From assembly GCA_903873905.1 (NCBI GenBank), contig CAIQQJ010000178.1, positions 1 through 63,900 on the forward strand: a stretch of DNA of 63,900 nucleotides, in the 5' to 3' direction. Of the stretch, positions 39,058 to 47,015 are shown piece by piece. The stretch comes from an uncultured Flavobacteriales bacterium. GTDB lineage: Bacteria; Bacteroidota; Bacteroidia; Palsa-965. Positions within the stretch are counted from its first letter, which is position 1, and each line of letters starts with the position of its first letter. Below the pieces are notes generated by a model. That model ran no database searches. It was not told where the DNA came from and saw only the letters and a list, made by a program, of their open reading frames with translations. Both the position numbers and the translations under genes were made by a program.

Positions 39058-39300
39058 ATGAAGCTTAAAAAAAACATTGCTACAAGCGAATCGGGATTCA
39101 TCTTTAATCCTGCAACTGGAGATTCCTATTCAGCAAATCCAGTTGGATCCGACATCATTCTTCTGATGAAGGACAATAAATCCATTGCCGAGATCAAAAA
39201 AAACATCACGTCTAAATATGATGTGGACGATTCGCAGTTTGATAAAGACTACGATGATCTGTTGGCTCAATTGCGCGACAATAATCTGCTCGAGCATTAA
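39058..39300 (+). CDS. PqqD-like peptide-recognition protein
   Basis: An 80-residue protein with the PqqD fold pattern: MKLKKNIATSESGFIFNPATG, then GSDIILLMKDNKSIAEIKKN (winged-helix helices) and a C-terminal helix DDLLAQLRDNNLLEH. PqqD proteins and the related lasso-peptide B1 proteins are RiPP recognition elements that hold the leader of a precursor peptide for modifying enzymes. I choose the ATG at 39058; a longer start adds 15 residues without match. It is the first gene of a six-gene operon; the next gene starts 17 bases later. No separate precursor peptide gene is visible, which makes the leader-like tail of the third gene interesting. Confidence 0.85.
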   Translation: MKLKKNIATSESGFIFNPATGDSYSANPVGSDIILLMKDNKSIAEIKKNITSKYDVDDSQFDKDYDDLLAQLRDNNLLEH

Positions 39301-39317
39301 TTAATTCCTCAATTTTT

Positions 39318-40385
39318 ATGAAGGACAAAAATAAAAAAGGTGATCGTCCGCGGTATACCGTGGCTGTCACAGGACTAAACGCTATTGATTCCCCTGGGCC
39401 TGGAATGGCCGTGATTCGTGCTGTGCGTGAAGCAAAAGATTATGATGTTCGCATCATTGGACTTTCTTACGAAGCACTGGAACCCGGAATTTACTTGCAC
39501 GATTGGGTGGATAAAACTTATCAGATTCCATATCCAGCAGCAGGAAGTGAATCCTTGTTCGCACGTTTGGAATATATTAATGACATTGAAAAGATTGACG
39601 TGCTCATTCCTAATTTCGATGCGGAGCTTCATAATTTCATTCGTCTTGGAGAGAAATTACGGAAAATTGGAATTGCAACATTTCTTCCAGCAATGGATCA
39701 ATTCGAAGCGCGTGATAAAGTGAATCTTTACGCATTCGGACAGAAACACGGTTTGCTTGTTCCTGCAGATCGAATCATTTATAAAGTAGAAGATCTTGCA
39801 GGAACGGCGAAAGATTTCGGTTGGCCAATTGTGGTGAAAGGGAAATTTTATGAAGCTGTCGTTGCACAAACGCTCGAGCAAGCACAAAAAGCATTTCACA
39901 AATTGCACGCGAAGTGGGGGCTTCCAATTATTGTTCAACAATTTATTTCTGGAAGTGAAATGAACATCGCTGTGCTTGGTGATGGAAAAGGAAATACGAT
40001 TTCTGCAATTCCCATGCGAAAATTATATATCACTGATAAAGGAAAAGCGTGGGCGGGAATTACAGTTGAAGACAATGCGCTGATCGATCTCGCGAAGAAA
40101 TTCATTACAGCAACCAAATGGCGAGGTGGATTGGAAATTGAAATCATGCTTTCTGTTGATGGAAAACCTTACATCATGGAAGTCAATCCAAGATTTCCTG
40201 CGTGGATTTATTTGACAGCAGGAGCAGGACAAAATCAGCCCGCTGCATTGGTTAAGATGGCACTTGGTGAAACGGTTGAGCCTTACACAACTTATGATGT
40301 TGGGAAAATGTTCATCCGTTACGCATGGGATCATATTGTGAACATTGAAGAATTTCAAAAAATTTCCGCATTCGGAGAATTATAA
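39318..40385 (+). CDS. ATP-grasp ligase
   Basis: A 355-residue ATP-grasp enzyme of the carbamoyl-phosphate-synthase-large/biotin-carboxylase relation. A pre-ATP-grasp Rossmann-like N-domain (YTVAVTGLNAIDSPGPG) leads into the grasp: lysine in WPIVVKGKFY, VQQFISGSEMNI for ATP contact, and metal ligands LEIEIML and MEVNPRFPAW. It should form an amide, peptide or thioester bond using ATP, with a carboxylate and a nucleophile. No amidotransferase or carboxylase companion exists here. Operon place between the PqqD-like gene and a LysA-like PLP enzyme recalls the butirosin pair BtrJ (ATP-grasp) and BtrK (decarboxylase). The substrate is unknown. Confidence 0.88.
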   Translation: MKDKNKKGDRPRYTVAVTGLNAIDSPGPGMAVIRAVREAKDYDVRIIGLSYEALEPGIYLHDWVDKTYQIPYPAAGSESLFARLEYINDIEKIDVLIPNFDAELHNFIRLGEKLRKIGIATFLPAMDQFEARDKVNLYAFGQKHGLLVPADRIIYKVEDLAGTAKDFGWPIVVKGKFYEAVVAQTLEQAQKAFHKLHAKWGLPIIVQQFISGSEMNIAVLGDGKGNTISAIPMRKLYITDKGKAWAGITVEDNALIDLAKKFITATKWRGGLEIEIMLSVDGKPYIMEVNPRFPAWIYLTAGAGQNQPAALVKMALGETVEPYTTYDVGKMFIRYAWDHIVNIEEFQKISAFGEL

Positions 40386-40406
40386 AAACGCAAAAAAAAT
40401 ATTCTT

Positions 40407-41768
40407 ATGGCAAAGCTTAAATACGAACGTCCTGTCATCAAAAAATTGAATGCAGGATTAATGAATAAATTCGGAACACGCACGGAATTCGAACCTGTAA
40501 AACATATTGACGGTGTGGCTGTGAAATCACTCATTGAAAAATATGGCTCTCCTGTTTTTGTTATTTCAGAAAGACAAATGCGGAGAAATTACCAGAATGC
40601 AGTTCGTTCTTTCAAGACACGTTATCCGAAAGTGCAATTCGCATGGTCTTACAAAACAAATTACATCAATGCAGTTTGTAATGTATTTCACCAAGAAGGA
40701 TCATGGGGAGAAGTGGTTTCTGGTTTTGAATACAACAAGGCTTTGCGCAATGGTGTTCCCGGAAATAAAATTATTTTCAACGGACCCGATAAATCAGAAC
40801 AGGATTTGCGTGATGCAATAAAAAATGATTCGCTCATTCATATTGATCACTTTGATGAATTGTATTCACTGATCAGTTTGTGTGAAACGATCAATGCAAA
40901 ACCAAGAGTTGCCATTCGTGTGAATATGGACACCGGTATTTATCCAATGTGGGATCGTTTTGGTTTCAATTATGAGAATGGTTCAGCGTGGAATGCTATT
41001 CAGAAAATTATTGGCTCTGGAAAATTGAGATTGGTTGGATTGCATTCACACATTGGTACTTTCATGCTTGCACCTTCTGCCTATTCAGTTGCAGCATCCA
41101 AACTTTGCGATCTCATGTGGCATTGCAAGAATCAACACAATTTGCAATTGCAGTACATTGACCTTGGCGGTGGATTCCCTTCTCAAAATACTTTGAAAGG
41201 TTCTTATTTGCCAGGCACAGATACCGTTCCTTCCATTGATGAATTTGCAGAAGCTATTACAACAACAATTCTGAATTTTGGATTCAAAACTGAAGAATTG
41301 CCTTTGTTGATTTTGGAAACAGGTCGCGCACTTATTGATGATGCAGGATATCTACTTGGTTCTGTCCTTGCAAATAAACGTTTGGCTGATGGACGTCGCG
41401 CAACGATAATGGATTTTGGTGTGAACATCATGTTCACTTCGTTTTGGTACGATCACAAAATAAGTCCTGCACAAGATTTCACACATCACACCGAGGATCA
41501 AGTTGTTTACGGACCACTTTGTATGAACATTGATTGCATTCGAGAAAGTGTGAGTTTGCCTTTGCTCAATCGTGGCGATCATGTTGTGGTACACAAAGTA
41601 GGCGCTTACAACATGACACAGTGGATGCAATTTATTGCCATGCGTCCAAATGTGGTAATGATTGACATGGAACAAACACCACATCTCATTCGTCGTGCTG
41701 AAAAATTGGATGATATTGTTTCATTGGAAGAAATGCCGGCGTATTTGAAAAAGATTGATTTAAAGTAA
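40407..41768 (+). CDS. LysA-like PLP-dependent decarboxylase with leader-like N-terminal tail
   Basis: 453 residues, fold-type III (alanine racemase barrel plus C-terminal beta domain). PLP lysine in FAWSYKTNYI (Lys83), HSHIGT for the ring, GGGFP phosphate loop, LETGRALIDDAG (E-x-GR in place of EPGR), GPLCMNIDC with the catalytic cysteine, and VGAYNM with the tyrosine. These are features of diaminopimelate and related D/L-amino-acid decarboxylases. Residues 1-30 precede the usual start and include KLKYERPVIKKLNAGLMNK: Tyr6-x2-Pro9-x4-Leu14-x2-Gly17, like the leader motif bound by PqqD-type domains. It is in an operon far from dapB, so a role in standard lysine synthesis is less likely. Confidence 0.88.
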   Translation: MAKLKYERPVIKKLNAGLMNKFGTRTEFEPVKHIDGVAVKSLIEKYGSPVFVISERQMRRNYQNAVRSFKTRYPKVQFAWSYKTNYINAVCNVFHQEGSWGEVVSGFEYNKALRNGVPGNKIIFNGPDKSEQDLRDAIKNDSLIHIDHFDELYSLISLCETINAKPRVAIRVNMDTGIYPMWDRFGFNYENGSAWNAIQKIIGSGKLRLVGLHSHIGTFMLAPSAYSVAASKLCDLMWHCKNQHNLQLQYIDLGGGFPSQNTLKGSYLPGTDTVPSIDEFAEAITTTILNFGFKTEELPLLILETGRALIDDAGYLLGSVLANKRLADGRRATIMDFGVNIMFTSFWYDHKISPAQDFTHHTEDQVVYGPLCMNIDCIRESVSLPLLNRGDHVVVHKVGAYNMTQWMQFIAMRPNVVMIDMEQTPHLIRRAEKLDDIVSLEEMPAYLKKIDLK

Positions 41769-41791
41769 TTTCGTGTTCTGAGAATTAATTT

Positions 41792-43957
41792 ATGAATTTT
41801 CTTCAAATAAAATCTTGGCCCAATGCCATTCTTCGAACTTATGCGATTGTTCTTTTTTCGCAGAAGAAATGGCTTGGCGTCTTGCTTTTATTCGTTTCCT
41901 TCTTGAATCCTGTTGCTGGAATGTGTGGGATTATTTCGGTGTGTGCTGCAATTCTCATTGCTGAAGTCACACATTTAAATCAAGCTGGAATTCATAGTGG
42001 ACTTTACAGCTTCAATGCGTTGATGGTGGGCGTTGGAATGGGGACTTTTTATGAAACGGGTTTTGCATTTTATATTGTTCTCTTCACTGCCGTTTTATTG
42101 AGTGTAATACTTTCATCAATTTTAGCTGCCTGGTTTGGAAAATACGGATTACCATTTCTTTCCCTTCCATTTGTATTTACGTTTTGGTTGGTATTGCTTG
42201 CTACGAAAGAGTTTTCATACATTGGTTTGAGTCAACGAAATGTTTATTGGCTCAATGAAATGTATGCAGCAGGAGGACAACCATTAGTTTCCTTTTTTAC
42301 ATGGATTGAGAATTTACCAATGCCAGATGTTGTTGGGTATTATTTCCGTGCATTGAGCGCATTGTTTTTTCAGAGCAATGTTTTGGGTGGAATGATTATT
42401 TGCGTGGGACTATTATTTTTTTCCAGAATACATTTCACCTTATCCATTCTCGGATTTGTTTGTGCATATGGTTTCAATTATCTCACAGGAGGATATGCAT
42501 CTGGAATAAATTATTACAATCTCGGAAGTAATTATATGATGGTTGCATTGGCAATAGGAGGTTTCTTTTCCATTCCATCCAACGCTTCGTATTTATGGGC
42601 GGTATGGAGCATTCCATTAACATCATTGCTCGTAATTGGACTTGGGAAAATATTTGGTGTCTTGTTATTGCCAACTTTTTCTCTCCCAATGTGCCTTATC
42701 GTTATAGCATTCATCTTCTTTATGAAGCAGCGAATGTTTGAGGGAAAATTGAAATTAGCACACATTCAACATTATTCTCCGGAAGTGAATCGTTATCTTT
42801 TTCTTAATGGACAAGAACGTTGGAAGGATTTATATTATTTCCATTTATTTCCTCCTTTCCTAGGAGAATGGGCTGTAACGCAAGGTTATGATGGCAGCAT
42901 CACACACAAAGGTGATTGGAGCAAAGCATTGGATTTTTCAGTGTTAGATGAGGAAATGAAAACTTATTCAGGAGCCGGAGTTCATTGTGAGGATTTTTAT
43001 TGCTTCAATAAACCTGTTCTCGCTCCATGCGATGGAATTGTGGAAGAAATCATTGACAATGTGGATGATAATGCCATTGGTGAAGTGAATACAAAAGAGA
43101 ATTGGGGAAATACAATTGTGATACGTCATTGGACAGGATTGTATACAAAGATGTCGCATTTGAGGAAGAATTCTTTTCGAGTGAAAAAAGGAGATTTTAT
43201 TCACCGTGGTGATATTGTTGCATTGTGTGGAAATTCCGGTCGTTCTCCTGAACCGCATTTGCATTTTCAAGTTCAATCTTTTCCACACGTAGGTTCGAGC
43301 ACAATTGAATATCCGCTTGCCTATTATGTTGTGCGAGAACACAAAAAAATAATTCCTGAGAATTTTTCTATTCCTAAGGAAGGCCAACTCATTAGCAGTG
43401 TTGAAATAAATTCTTCAATGAGTGATGCATTCCGATTTCAGCCTGGATTCAAAACAACATTCCGCATTTCTGAAAATGGAATTGACACGGAAGAAACTTG
43501 GGAAGTCTTTACAGATGCATGGAATCATACGTACATCTGGTCGAAAGAAAAAAAATCTACAGGATATTTTGTGAATAATGGAACGGTGTTTTATTTCACA
43601 GGATTTTATGGCGACAAAAGTTCTTTGTTGTATACTTTTTATCTCTCCTGTTATCGTGTTATGCTCTCGATTATGAATGGGGTTTCGATTAAAGACAGTT
43701 TCCCTTTGCATTTGCTTGGTAATAGTCCAAGGATGTGGTTACAGGATTTTGTTTGTCCATTTTTCATATTTATGAAACAGGAATTTTCAATCCATGCAGA
43801 GGAGCGAGGTGATTCGATGGATTTTGGAAATGTGGTTCTTCATTCGCAGATGAAAGGAAATATCGGAAAAGCGCAAATGGATGGAGAGGTTTTGGTTGTG
43901 AATGGAAAGATTGAGAAAATTATGGCAGGAAGTAAGGAGGCGGTATGCGTGGCTTAA
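41792..43957 (+). CDS. Urea-transporter domain fused to M23 (LytM) peptidase
   Basis: 721 residues in two modules. Residues ~1-315 are an integral membrane urea-channel fold: GLYSFNALMVGVGMG near 70-84, the duplicated UT signature GLPFLSLPFVFTFW (119-132) and LLPTFSLPMCL (292-302), with about ten membrane segments. After a linker, residues ~365-500 are a LytM/M23 endopeptidase: zinc ligands His372 and Asp381 (HKGDWSKALDF), APCDGIVEEI, WGNTIVIRHW, YTKMSHLRKNSFRVKKGD, and PHLHFQV with His489 and His491. Residues ~500-721 are a further beta-rich domain without known motif. The active site appears complete. This join of a small-amide channel with a wall hydrolase is unusual. It overlaps the next gene by 13 bases. 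Confidence 0.9.
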   Translation: MNFLQIKSWPNAILRTYAIVLFSQKKWLGVLLLFVSFLNPVAGMCGIISVCAAILIAEVTHLNQAGIHSGLYSFNALMVGVGMGTFYETGFAFYIVLFTAVLLSVILSSILAAWFGKYGLPFLSLPFVFTFWLVLLATKEFSYIGLSQRNVYWLNEMYAAGGQPLVSFFTWIENLPMPDVVGYYFRALSALFFQSNVLGGMIICVGLLFFSRIHFTLSILGFVCAYGFNYLTGGYASGINYYNLGSNYMMVALAIGGFFSIPSNASYLWAVWSIPLTSLLVIGLGKIFGVLLLPTFSLPMCLIVIAFIFFMKQRMFEGKLKLAHIQHYSPEVNRYLFLNGQERWKDLYYFHLFPPFLGEWAVTQGYDGSITHKGDWSKALDFSVLDEEMKTYSGAGVHCEDFYCFNKPVLAPCDGIVEEIIDNVDDNAIGEVNTKENWGNTIVIRHWTGLYTKMSHLRKNSFRVKKGDFIHRGDIVALCGNSGRSPEPHLHFQVQSFPHVGSSTIEYPLAYYVVREHKKIIPENFSIPKEGQLISSVEINSSMSDAFRFQPGFKTTFRISENGIDTEETWEVFTDAWNHTYIWSKEKKSTGYFVNNGTVFYFTGFYGDKSSLLYTFYLSCYRVMLSIMNGVSIKDSFPLHLLGNSPRMWLQDFVCPFFIFMKQEFSIHAEERGDSMDFGNVVLHSQMKGNIGKAQMDGEVLVVNGKIEKIMAGSKEAVCVA

Positions 43958-45192
43958 GAAACATTATTTTCATTTTAATTTTCAGTGTTGGAAAATTATC
44001 CGCACAGCAATTAACTTTCCCATATGTTGATAGTGCAACCTATGCAATGTATTTGAAGGGTGATTACAATGAATTGATAAAACTTGGCAGTAAAGCCATT
44101 AAGCAGGGAATAGATTATCCCTTACTTCGTGTGCGAATGGCAGAAGCCGCAGAATTGAATAATGATTTTTCAACTGCGGAGAAAATTTATCGAGGAATTG
44201 TTATTACTGATACAACAAATGCCAATGCGCATTATCAAGTTGCTCAGAATAATATTTTTCTAAACCGTTATGATATTGCGGAATATTATGCGCCAACTTT
44301 AAATGTTGTGCAACGGAAAAATCTCGGGTTGAAAAAACATGCGCTGATTGAATCTGTAAATTTTGAGGCAGGATTGAAACACCCAGGAGACACTTCTCGT
44401 GGAAATGCTTATTTCGGAAGTGTTGGTATTTCCTCTCGACTTTTTTACCGATGGACTTTGTACCAATCTATTACGCCATATGGTCAAACGGTAACGGACA
44501 GCGATACGACATCTTCATTTCCTTTTCATCCAGCGCATATTGGGCAAATAAATTATTATGCAAAATTACACGGACAAATTTTCCCACATTTGGGAGTGAC
44601 GGCTGCATTTTATCATTTTTCTTTACGTGAAAAAGTTACGGATTGGATTCCTCCGCAGCAAAATGGACCGCACATGGGACCTCCGACACCACCGCCAACA
44701 ATCACTCAAAATGGATTTTATTTTGTTGGAGGGCTGCGTTGGAATTTGCCGAAGTTAGAGTTGCATGGAGAATATGTTGTTGGTCAAATGAATAGTTCCT
44801 CCTTCTCGCAAATGGGAGTGTCATTCATGTATTTGCCCTTTGGAAATTTGTATTCTTACGTAAGAGGTGAATGTTATTATCAACTTCCAACAAATTCTGG
44901 AAACGGTAATTTGGTTTTCATTCCAACTCTTGGTTTCAAGTTGCAGAAGAAAGTTTGGTTTGAAGCCACAGCGACATTTGGAACATTCAATAATCTTGCC
45001 CAGAATGAAGGAGCCTATTTTTTCAATATGTATGATGCAACAAAATTGCGTTACGGAGGCACCTTATTCCTTCTTGCAGGAAAGAAAAGCATTTTTACAT
45101 TGAATTATTTGCAGGAAACAAAATTAATCTCGAATACCAATTCAACTTATCAACAACCATCAATAACCTTTGGACTACAATGGAAACTATGA
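43945..45192 (+). CDS. TPR plus outer-membrane beta-barrel protein
   Basis: 415 residues. Signal peptide (MRGLRNIIFILIFSVGKLSA), then TPR-like helices (about 25-125: YLKGDYNELIKLGSKAIKQG, LNNDFSTAEKIYRGIV), then a C-terminal barrel with alternating aromatic strands (YRWTLYQSITPYG, YSYVRGECYYQLP, SITFGLQWKL). This is the plan of YaiO-like exporter/outer-membrane proteins in polysaccharide export. A Pro/Gly-rich loop (PPQQNGPHMGPPTPPPT) lies between strands. It should sit in the outer membrane and could give the operon product a way out. Starts inside the end of the preceding gene; stop overlaps the next start (ATGA). Confidence 0.8.
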   Translation: MRGLRNIIFILIFSVGKLSAQQLTFPYVDSATYAMYLKGDYNELIKLGSKAIKQGIDYPLLRVRMAEAAELNNDFSTAEKIYRGIVITDTTNANAHYQVAQNNIFLNRYDIAEYYAPTLNVVQRKNLGLKKHALIESVNFEAGLKHPGDTSRGNAYFGSVGISSRLFYRWTLYQSITPYGQTVTDSDTTSSFPFHPAHIGQINYYAKLHGQIFPHLGVTAAFYHFSLREKVTDWIPPQQNGPHMGPPTPPPTITQNGFYFVGGLRWNLPKLELHGEYVVGQMNSSSFSQMGVSFMYLPFGNLYSYVRGECYYQLPTNSGNGNLVFIPTLGFKLQKKVWFEATATFGTFNNLAQNEGAYFFNMYDATKLRYGGTLFLLAGKKSIFTLNYLQETKLISNTNSTYQQPSITFGLQWKL

Positions 45193-45809
45193 AAAAAATA
45201 ATTGTCGCACTCATGTTGTGCGTTATTACAACCGCTCAGGCGCAAACGACCACCACACAAACTGATTTGCAAACGGCTTTCAAATACAGTTATGCCTGCG
45301 AAGCTGCAGGGAATTACACGGATGCAATTGGATATCTCACCAAGGTTTATGATGAGAAAAGTTATGAAATCAATCTTCGCCTGGGATGGTTGAATTACGC
45401 AACGAAGAATTGCCCAACTTCAATTTCCTATTACCAAAAAGCAATTGACTTGCGCCCTTACGGAATTGAAGCGCGGCTGGGTTATGTGAAACCGGCTTCT
45501 GCATTGGAAAAATGGGATGATGTTCTTGCACAATACGAAGCCATTCTGAAAATCGATCCGCAAAATTCAACCGTGAATTATTATACTGGAATGATTTATT
45601 ATAATAGAAAGGATTATTTAAAGGCTGCAGGTTATTTTGAAAAAGTGGTAAATCTTTATCCCTTCGATTACAATTCATCCTTAATGTTGGGCTGGTGCGA
45701 TGTGTTCTTGGGAAAAATGAGCGATGCTAAAATCCTTTTCCAAAAAGTATTGCTTTACAGTCCAAGTGATGCTTCTGCATTGGATGGATTGAAAAGAGTA
45801 GGTCAATAG
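45189..45809 (+). CDS. Secreted TPR protein
   Basis: A 206-residue periplasmic protein from the ATG at 45189, which overlaps the previous stop (ATGA); an in-frame ATG three codons upstream is also possible. Signal peptide MKKIIVALMLCVITTAQA, then about five TPR units (YACEAAGNYTDAIGYLTKV, NYYTGMIYYNRKDYLKAAGYF, LMLGWCDVFLGKMSDAKILF). Likely a periplasmic partner of the barrel protein encoded just upstream. It is the last gene of the operon; a strong bidirectional terminator follows. Confidence 0.85.
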   Translation: MKKIIVALMLCVITTAQAQTTTTQTDLQTAFKYSYACEAAGNYTDAIGYLTKVYDEKSYEINLRLGWLNYATKNCPTSISYYQKAIDLRPYGIEARLGYVKPASALEKWDDVLAQYEAILKIDPQNSTVNYYTGMIYYNRKDYLKAAGYFEKVVNLYPFDYNSSLMLGWCDVFLGKMSDAKILFQKVLLYSPSDASALDGLKRVGQ

Positions 45810-45871
45810 TTTTTATTCAACACCCTGTTAAGAAAGGCGCTACCTATAATGATGTGGCGCCTTTCACAATT

Positions 45872-45903
45872 AAAAAAGGATAGCAATTTTGCTATCCTTT
45901 TTT
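45872..45903. terminator. Bidirectional terminator after the PqqD operon
   Basis: AAAAAAGGATAGCAA / TTGCTATCCTTTTTT, perfect, with A and T runs that suit both strands. It separates the plus-strand operon from the convergent DUF4476 gene. Another stem (GAAAGGCGC / GCGCCTTTC, 45832-45865) lies just before it. Confidence 0.92.
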
Positions 45904-45926
45904 AATTCAAAATATTTCAAAAATTA

Positions 45927-47015
45927 TTATTTGTGTGATTCGATGTAAGAATTCAATTTGTCAACAGATCCTGAAAAAGTAAATCCATCGTTCAATTGAT
46001 AATAATTATTTGGATCAGTTGTTTTTCCATAAGCAAACTCAGCCCAATCCACTTTAGTATCTTCGAAACTGAACAATGCCATAATTTCTTTTATTTGAGA
46101 AGTACTCATACAATTTGTATTGAGAACCTGTTTGGCAATTTTCAATTTTTGATCCTCGAATGATTGTCCTCCAACTGATTTTTTTGCATTGGCAAAATCA
46201 GATGAACTCATAGGAAAAGCACACTGATTGGAAGCAGGCGGTGGTGTTGCTGTGCTTGTATTACTTCCTCCAGTTGTAGTGGAAGAGGACGAGGACGAAG
46301 TTGTAGTAGTAGTAGTTGAAGTGGATGTACCTGTTCCATTCATTCCATCATTCACATTGATATTAATTCCAATTCCAACGCCACCTGCATTCATACCAAC
46401 ATTGATATTATCTGCAGTTCCTCCTGTTGTGGTTGTAGTGGTGGTGGTTGAACTTGTGCCACCTGTTCCGTCCCCAACTGTTGTTGTGGTTTGGCTTCCT
46501 GTGTTATTCGGTACAATTACAACTCCTGTGTTTACGTTAGTGCCAGTTGTTGTAGAACCCGTTGTTGTGGTTGTTGTGTTGGAATAATTCGTTGCATTTC
46601 CTGAAGGATTGAATACATAAATAACTTGTCCAGGTGCTGCTGGTCCTTGTGGGGTAATGTCGGCAACGCTCTGGCCCTTAAGTTTCATCCCCTTTTTTCC
46701 GTTTGCAATAACATATGTGAATTCCTTGTTGGTTACATTTTCTCCACCATCCATCAAATAAACATTTTGATCAATAGGAGCAAGGCCAGCATTTTCAAAA
46801 ATGACACGTACTTTATAATTCGAGGCGTTTAGACCAGTAACTTTTACATTCGTTTCTGGTTTTTCATTCTGCTTTAGGCCATTTACAATAAGTGAGAATT
46901 TATCGCCGTCTTGCGAAAAGACAACAATATTGTTATTTAATGTTTGAGCGAATGCAAAACAAGTAGAAAGCAATAGCGCTGATGACATGGAAAATTTTCG
47001 GAGAGTTGTTTTCAT
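45927..47015 (-). CDS. DUF4476 domain secreted protein
   Basis: 362 residues: signal peptide (MKTTLRKFSMSSALLLSTCFAFAQ), a beta-rich N-domain (KFSLIVNGLKQNEKPETNVKV, the usual opening of DUF4476 proteins), a long Thr/Ser/Gly low-complexity linker (about 140-265), and the C-terminal DUF4476 helical domain (MSSSDFANAKKSVGGQSFEDQKL, CMSTSQIKEIMALFSFEDTKVDWAEFAY). Widespread in Bacteroidota with unknown function. The Thr repeats are coded by ACA/ACC-rich tracts, prone to length change. 47016-47403 upstream holds AT-rich sequence with a CAAAGGTA box at 47110-47117 for this gene. Confidence 0.85.
   Translation of the reverse strand: MKTTLRKFSMSSALLLSTCFAFAQTLNNNIVVFSQDGDKFSLIVNGLKQNEKPETNVKVTGLNASNYKVRVIFENAGLAPIDQNVYLMDGGENVTNKEFTYVIANGKKGMKLKGQSVADITPQGPAAPGQVIYVFNPSGNATNYSNTTTTTTGSTTTGTNVNTGVVIVPNNTGSQTTTTVGDGTGGTSSTTTTTTTTGGTADNINVGMNAGGVGIGININVNDGMNGTGTSTSTTTTTTSSSSSSTTTGGSNTSTATPPPASNQCAFPMSSSDFANAKKSVGGQSFEDQKLKIAKQVLNTNCMSTSQIKEIMALFSFEDTKVDWAEFAYGKTTDPNNYYQLNDGFTFSGSVDKLNSYIESHK

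Follow-up and report, generated by a model that had tools for sequence, protein, structure and literature searches.

A Conserved Bacteroidota Operon Combining a Lasso-Type RRE, a Leader-Like Arm on a Decarboxylase and a UT-M23 Fusion Protein

Comparison with Described Systems

Lasso peptides are made by a compact set of components: a B1 RRE (recognition element of ribosomally synthesized and post-translationally modified peptides, RiPPs), a leader carrying the motif YxxPxL, a B2 protease and a C cyclase. A six-gene operon found in a 63,900-nt stretch of DNA from an uncultured Flavobacteriales bacterium (contig CAIQQJ010000178.1; the whole stretch is called the window below) resembles this set in part. 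The operon encodes a predicted stand-alone PqqD-type RRE nearest to TbiB1 and TfuB1, the motif [YF]xxPx[ILV], an ATP-dependent bond-forming enzyme and a peptidase. However, the motif is carried by an enzyme and not by a precursor, and an ATP-grasp ligase and an M23 domain stand in place of the B2 transglutaminase-like protease and the cyclase.

Other described systems are approached by single parts of the operon. FslC/FigC and SbnH, the decarboxylases of N-citrylornithine and N-citryl-diaminopropionate in siderophore pathways, are nearest in solved fold and sequence to its pyridoxal-phosphate (PLP) enzyme and share the Cys-Met of the catalytic loop, but the identity is 27%, the partner is an ATP-grasp enzyme rather than a synthetase of the NRPS-independent siderophore (NIS) type, and the operon has no siderophore receptor. 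In butirosin synthesis, BtrJ, BtrK and BtrI likewise combine an ATP-grasp enzyme with a LysA-fold decarboxylase for a conjugated amino acid. In contrast, no acyl carrier protein was detected among the six proteins by Pfam and NCBIfam, and the operon has an RRE, an arm, and dedicated membrane and outer-membrane proteins. The urea transporters dvUT and UT-B have the same full-length fold as the operon's urea-transporter (UT) domain. Here it is fused to an M23 domain and one further domain, two of its pore positions are mostly replaced, and no urease was seen among the operon genes. The exporters PgaA, VexE and Slam also join a TPR-like N-terminus to a barrel and, as in the operon, are accompanied by a periplasmic TPR partner, but the operon's barrel protein has no significant family membership and no polysaccharide synthesis genes are present in the operon. 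Graspetide pathways have a graspetide-type ligase and an adjacent precursor; the operon's ligase falls in the carbamoyl-phosphate-synthase-like group, and the operon encodes no precursor.

Because the locus matches neither RiPP and lasso pathways, nor graspetide, butirosin-type or urea-uptake systems, the combination would be new at the system level, as judged from sequence and structure prediction, although its parts belong to known families. Searches of the open-access literature for the gene set, for an RRE with a decarboxylase and for UT with M23 found nothing describing the operon, in agreement with the first-pass annotation, which had known of no described system with the whole set.

Conservation and Gene Order

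A total of 395 Bacteroidota genomes was searched separately with the UT-M23 protein (match spanning both domains) and with the ATP-grasp protein (E <= 1e-40). Each was present in 34/395 genomes, and the two sets of 34 are identical; in one of these genomes, the UT and M23 halves are separate open reading frames (ORFs). For the analysis of gene order, 33 loci from the 34 genomes were combined with 80 from named assemblies (n = 113). Two of the genes served as similarity queries in picking both samples, so the informative part is the adjacency of the others. The pqqD and ATP-grasp genes are neighbors in 107/109 loci, the ATP-grasp and PLP genes in 111/112, and the PLP and UT-M23 genes in all 106 testable ones. 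A TPR gene follows UT-M23 in 80/84 loci, and the barrel gene was detected in 74 of the 82 with enough sequence. The block recurs in the same order in at least 113 loci, far above chance. The first-pass annotation had read the six genes as one self-contained operon, and this held: the order is kept almost throughout, and the homologues co-occur in every case rather than rarely.

In the class Bacteroidia, the ATP-grasp family was found in 75/395 genomes. The operon family thereby occurs in about 9% of the sampled Bacteroidota genomes and 19% of the sampled Bacteroidia, with named isolates such as Hymenobacter edaphi and H. gummosus. It was found in 0/6 of the other genomes of the window's own genus, which hold only the housekeeping LysA homologue. 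In the nearest congener (G636), the same flanking genes (M32 and DUF423 on one side, DUF4476 and a saccharopine-dehydrogenase-like gene on the other) surround three other small genes where the window has the operon. The operon is an accessory cassette, patchy even within a genus.

The PqqD-Like Protein and the Arm of the PLP Enzyme

The PqqD-like protein was initially described as a recognition domain. Its family is supported by Pfam and by its nearest solved relatives, the lasso RREs TbiB1 (2e-13) and TfuB1 (3e-10), and by these matches it is a stand-alone RRE of the lasso B1 type; its predicted target is an arm on the PLP enzyme rather than a separate peptide. Discrete lasso RREs bind [Y/W]xxPx[L/V/I/F/A], and in LppB, D70 hydrogen-bonds the leader tyrosine while N33 fixes the proline (PMC13381572). 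By alignment, these two residues would be equivalent to D64 and N27 of the operon's PqqD. Over the 113 loci, N27 is invariant (113/113), D64 is kept in 108/113, and position 68 is Phe in 103/113 (Leu in the window).

The PLP enzyme begins with an arm of about 28 residues that its solved relatives lack, their alignments starting at model residue 20-38. The motif [YF]xxPx[ILV] is present in this arm in 112/113 loci, the lone exception having a split reading frame. A fuller consensus, K-x-x-[YF]-E-[RSK]-P-x-[ILV], keeps almost the same spacing to the catalytic domain. P9 and K21 are invariant (112/112) and G23 nearly so. The predicted local distance difference test (pLDDT) of AlphaFold2 is 40-60 for the arm and about 90 for the remainder of the enzyme. 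The conservation of the arm (0.68) is close to that of the catalytic domain (0.72), and a segment that is conserved yet disordered looks like a docking peptide. The Phe variants of the arm lie outside the published Y/W motif class.

The aromatic residue of the arm covaries with D64. The combinations of D64 or another residue with Tyr or Phe are distributed as 106:0:0:5, with the five Phe-arm loci being exactly those without D64, and D64 is the best separator of these loci among the 80 PqqD columns. The Fisher value of this pairing (8e-9) ignores relatedness and is not readable as a probability. In a wider search, 27 further Asp/Tyr and four further non-Asp/Phe pairs came up, and no mixed ones (27:0:0:4). 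Among 36,240 pairs of PqqD and PLP-enzyme columns, D64-Y6 ranks first by normalized mutual information and 16th by the corrected measure MIp. From these patterns, we consider the leader-like arm of the PLP enzyme, and not a separate precursor, to be the likely binding partner of PqqD. PqqD would in this way dock the decarboxylase to the ligase.

No conserved precursor peptide gene was found in the operon gaps or upstream, and most gaps are shorter than 100 nt; an unlinked gene falls outside this scope. A B2 protease and an asparagine-synthetase-like cyclase are absent among the six proteins by Pfam and NCBIfam. A classical RiPP pathway, with its precursor encoded elsewhere or too small to notice and with the arm motif only aiding the assembly of the RRE complex, would suit the lasso type of the PqqD protein, and some lineages do have other genes directly upstream (in 20 loci, one for a small secreted protein). 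These upstream partners are, however, lineage-specific, and no small gene is conserved in the short gaps or beside the operon, so that such a pathway appears very unlikely. The idea that PqqD is a LysW-like carrier, with loading at the C-terminus, was also rejected, because this end of the protein is variable.

If the docking is real, RREs would have a target other than precursor peptides, namely a leader motif borne by an enzyme. This would also supply a simple rule for spotting non-RiPP pathways among RRE clusters without a precursor, and the arm would represent a natural docking tag.

The Decarboxylase and the Ligase

The PLP enzyme keeps K83, H215, C372, D376 and Y401, and has the PLP lysine, the catalytic cysteine, the tyrosine of the GAY motif and both domains of an alanine-racemase-fold decarboxylase. 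Its catalytic loop reads C-M-N/Q-I-D in 109/109 PLP enzymes, with C372-M373 where LysA has C-E. In both sequence and fold, the nearest solved protein is FslC/FigC (7kh2, Z 46); LysA scores Z 44.8, and the fold alone cannot separate the two. The enzyme scores 205.5 bits with the FslC model NF041039 (cut-off 500) and 213.6 with the LysA model of NCBIfam (cut-off 297.9). The earlier wording, "decarboxylase or racemase" with BtrK as a parallel, can be narrowed: the residues are those of a LysA-fold decarboxylase, and the closest type is the N-citrylornithine enzyme rather than BtrK, which belongs to the same clade.

FigC/FslC, the N-citrylornithine decarboxylase, has Met in place of the acidic residue that holds a free side-chain amine, and within the same clade, BtrK acts on carrier-bound glutamate and MccE on a modified peptide-nucleotide (PMC7857480). 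Since the operon enzyme has the same Cys-Met and FslC is its nearest solved relative, its substrate would, by analogy, have a conjugated side chain.

An assignment as the LysA of the lysine pathway was rejected. The genome encodes a separate LysA elsewhere, with an aspartate kinase gene beside it; that LysA has the motif GPVCESSD and lacks the arm, and the acidic residue of LysA (C-E-S-x-D) is replaced by Met in the operon enzyme. The ATP-grasp protein is distantly D-Ala-D-Ala-ligase-like and scores under every NCBIfam cut-off. Family-level names are all that would support two housekeeping genes, LysA-like and CarB-like, adjoining transport genes by chance; the perfect co-occurrence already refutes this, and with the separate C-E-S-S-D LysA and both subfamilies far below the curated cut-offs, it has next to no probability.

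The UT-M23 Fusion Protein

The first 340 residues of UT-M23 form a full urea-transporter fold. Structure comparison with the human and bacterial transporters gives Z 37-38, with 310 residues aligned at Z 38. In dvUT, Q24, E187, T130 and T294 are the residues that we take to be the urea site. Among 28 operon proteins, the equivalent of E187 is retained in 0/28, T294 in 2/28 and Q24 in 22/28 (Ile in the window), while T130 is mostly Ser. Because the E187 and T294 equivalents are mostly replaced, we would not call the domain a urea channel, a term that applies here to the fold only. In the second domain, the metal and catalytic residues H372, D381, H456, H489 and H491 are invariant (28/28). Since the expected zinc and catalytic residues are all present and LytM domains are matched, it is a predicted peptidase. 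In the fusion, the urea-transporter fold would be put to a new use.

In mammalian urea transporters, both termini are cytosolic. The UT profile aligns across the whole transporter, the long middle loop is poor in Lys and Arg, and the stretch past the last helix is rich in them. For these reasons, the M23 domain is probably located on the cytoplasmic side, although stand-alone M23 relatives start with signal peptides or membrane segments. The first-pass annotation had placed an inner-membrane channel with a periplasmic peptidase here; the fold and the peptidase residues are borne out, the periplasmic side is doubtful in view of the full-length alignment and the charge pattern, and two of the urea-pore positions are mostly replaced.

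Two further observations concern this protein. At one locus (L062 8944-11198, genome G005), UT and M23 are separate overlapping ORFs, the M23 ORF having no signal peptide, which is either a natural split or a frameshift. The fused domain likely derives from a secreted stand-alone M23 subfamily with a distinctive H-x8-D zinc motif region (L151-L160), which is common in Bacteroidota.

The conserved arm and the peptidase also allow a different mechanism, in which the arm is a substrate carrier: PqqD presents the arm, the ATP-grasp enzyme attaches an amino acid to Lys21 through an isopeptide bond, and decarboxylation by the PLP domain takes place on the arm. The M23 domain, facing the cytoplasm, would then release the product by cleavage at the channel mouth. 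Peptidase-containing ABC exporters offer a parallel for a peptidase cutting a product at an exporter. Lys21 is invariant in a disordered arm, with G23 nearly so, and the M23 domain has invariant catalytic residues despite a predicted location on the cytoplasmic side, away from peptidoglycan. A precedent is given by BtrJ/BtrK/BtrI, where BtrK decarboxylates on the carrier protein BtrI (PMC7857480). Lys21 might, however, be just a second docking contact, and with signal peptides on M23 relatives elsewhere, the domain might be periplasmic. We rank plain docking above the Lys21 carrier, which is unlikely. A little less likely still is that a metabolic enzyme has taken over a RiPP leader, with the arm as a swinging carrier loaded by the ATP-grasp enzyme on Lys21, decarboxylation by the same polypeptide, and a UT-fused peptidase that clips the product and releases it outside.

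The Barrel and TPR Proteins

As first annotated, the operon ends with an outer-membrane barrel and a TPR partner: a signal peptide and a predicted barrel can be read in the first, and Pfam supports the second. The barrel protein has no significant Pfam match, and a sequence search found no solved barrel. TPR repeats were found in the N-terminus of 7/13 relatives, and VexE/PgaA-type TPR matches were also obtained with relatives. The barrel protein is the most variable part of the operon: most loci encode about 400-500 aa that begin TPR-like, and one deep-branching group has predicted barrels of about 280 aa instead.

These two proteins, the distant D-Ala-D-Ala-ligase likeness of the ATP-grasp enzyme and the secreted nature of the M23 relatives could point to a cell-envelope system. 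The ligase and the PLP enzyme would then supply an unusual building block for the wall or envelope, and the M23 domain, lying in the periplasm, would cut peptidoglycan to seat the barrel and TPR proteins or to alter the wall. But the charge pattern and homology place M23 in the cytoplasm, the operon is patchy and absent within the genus, unlike wall genes, and the RRE and the arm would be left unexplained. We regard this function as distinctly unlikely.

Proposed Mechanism

In the mechanism that we favor, PqqD would bind the YERPxI arm of the operon's LysA-fold decarboxylase and bring it to the ATP-grasp ligase. The ligase would join a carboxylate to an amine, and the decarboxylase, whose pocket lacks the acidic amine-gripping residue, would remove the alpha-carboxyl from the conjugated amino acid. 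The product, a small amide or N-acyl-amine, would pass to the inner-membrane UT-M23 protein and might leave the cell via the TPR-barrel and its TPR partner. Ligation followed by decarboxylation is moderately favored, and export is slightly favored over import. As a whole, the RRE-held biosynthesis-and-transport system is given about an even chance. That the operon makes a small amide and moves it across the envelope, which the first-pass annotation proposed in terms of export, is still the most likely reading; product and direction are what we infer, and a role of PqqD on a separate peptide now appears unlikely.

Several observations weigh against this mechanism. Scans of the arm with hidden Markov models of leaders gave sub-threshold hits only (DUF5972, E 0.014-0.056; tryglysin, 0.063). 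The five Phe/non-Asp loci form one clade in the ATP-grasp tree, because of which the covariation possibly reflects a single joint event; class-wide searches for further independent Tyr-to-Phe events added loci, none of which was shown to lie outside this clade. The orientation of UT-M23 is based on charge counts and homology. Finally, urea-transporter folds are passive channels, usually for very small solutes.

Operon Layout and Flanking Genes

The features of the operon are listed in Table 1. All six ORFs were found where first annotated, on the plus strand, and Pfam confirmed their families, the barrel excepted (PqqD 1e-11; ATP-grasp 6e-12; Orn_Arg_deC N 4e-27 and C 6e-12; UT 1e-49; M23 1e-15; TPR also matched).

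Table 1. Features of the six-gene operon, numbered along the 63,900-nt window.
Feature	Position	Strand	Basis or remark
PqqD-like protein, 80 aa	39058..39300	+	Pfam PF05402; nearest solved TbiB1, TfuB1; predicted stand-alone RRE, lasso-peptide type
PqqD Asp64 codon	39247..39249	+	equated with LppB D70; covaries with aromatic residue of arm
ATP-grasp ligase, 355 aa	39318..40385	+	carbamoyl-phosphate-synthase-like family (PRK12767 / ATPgrasp_Ter)
PLP-dependent decarboxylase, alanine-racemase fold, 453 aa	40407..41768	+	Pfam Orn_Arg_deC N + C; nearest solved 7kh2 FslC/FigC
PLP-enzyme N-terminal arm, residues 1-28, MAKLKYERPVIKKLNAGLMNKFGTRTEF	40407..40490	+	leader-like tail, missing from solved relatives
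YERPVI, predicted PqqD-binding motif, PLP-enzyme residues 6-11	40422..40439	+	motif counts, literature, conservation
Invariant Lys21 codon, disordered arm of PLP enzyme	40467..40469	+	conservation; possible acceptor site, speculative
UT-M23, whole gene	41792-43957	+	Pfam UT + M23
Urea-transporter domain, UT-M23 residues 1-312	41792..42727	+	PF03253 1e-49; structure matches
M23 domain, UT-M23 residues 346-512	42827..43327	+	PF01551; Z about 14 to LytM domains; residue counts
C-terminal beta-rich domain, UT-M23 residues 540-721	43409..43954	+	AlphaFold2 model; outside structure-match coverage
Outer-membrane protein, 415 aa: signal peptide, TPR-like N-terminus, predicted beta-barrel	43945..45192	+	sequence reading; TPR matches in relatives
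Periplasmic TPR protein, 209 aa	45180..45809, alternative start 45189	+	Pfam TPR; conserved family
Two strong hairpins, transcription terminator	45832..45907	+	hairpin folding z = -9.65

The genes are separated by 17, 21 and 23 nt, and UT-M23 overlaps the barrel gene by 13 nt, as reported before. The 4-nt overlap given for the barrel and TPR genes is correct only with the second ATG (45189); from the ATG at 45180, it is 13 nt. The strong terminator noted after the operon consists of two hairpins beyond the last stop, at 45832-45865 and 45868-45907, and T-rich DNA on both strands comes after the second. A generic terminator scan did not pick up these hairpins, and an Rfam search gave no match.

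The upstream neighbors (an M32 carboxypeptidase and DUF423) and the downstream DUF4476 gene all lie on the opposite strand, and the GC content of the operon is the same as that of the flanking DNA. The DUF4476 protein (45927-47015), which adjoins the operon and is syntenic in G636, has a long low-complexity middle of Thr, Ser and Gly.

At other loci, the upstream partners vary by lineage and, as read from their sequences, include a LytS/LytTR two-component system, an AraC-type regulator, a GNAT acetyltransferase and a secreted sorting-tail protein. The regulators and the patchy spread fit an inducible secreted compound. The GNAT-type acetyltransferase (about 167 aa) lies just upstream of pqqD at L034 6600-7103 and at 22 more loci, mostly Chitinophagaceae-type, and may serve in product tailoring or producer protection. 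The secreted protein, about 280 aa long and ending in a sorting domain, is encoded ahead of the operon at about 20 loci (upstream of pqqD in L045-L059). Insertions between the PLP and UT-M23 genes were of two kinds. In two Paludibacter-type genomes, a 517-aa OmpA-like protein with calcium-binding-type repeats is encoded there (L098 3363-4916 and L099 13503-15056). At three other loci (L131 12514-13461, L139 12476-13384 and L141 7538-8368), the insert is a protein of 276-315 aa with an LLHSNSS motif, eIF2B/methylthioribose-isomerase-like by eye, which may be an extra pathway enzyme.

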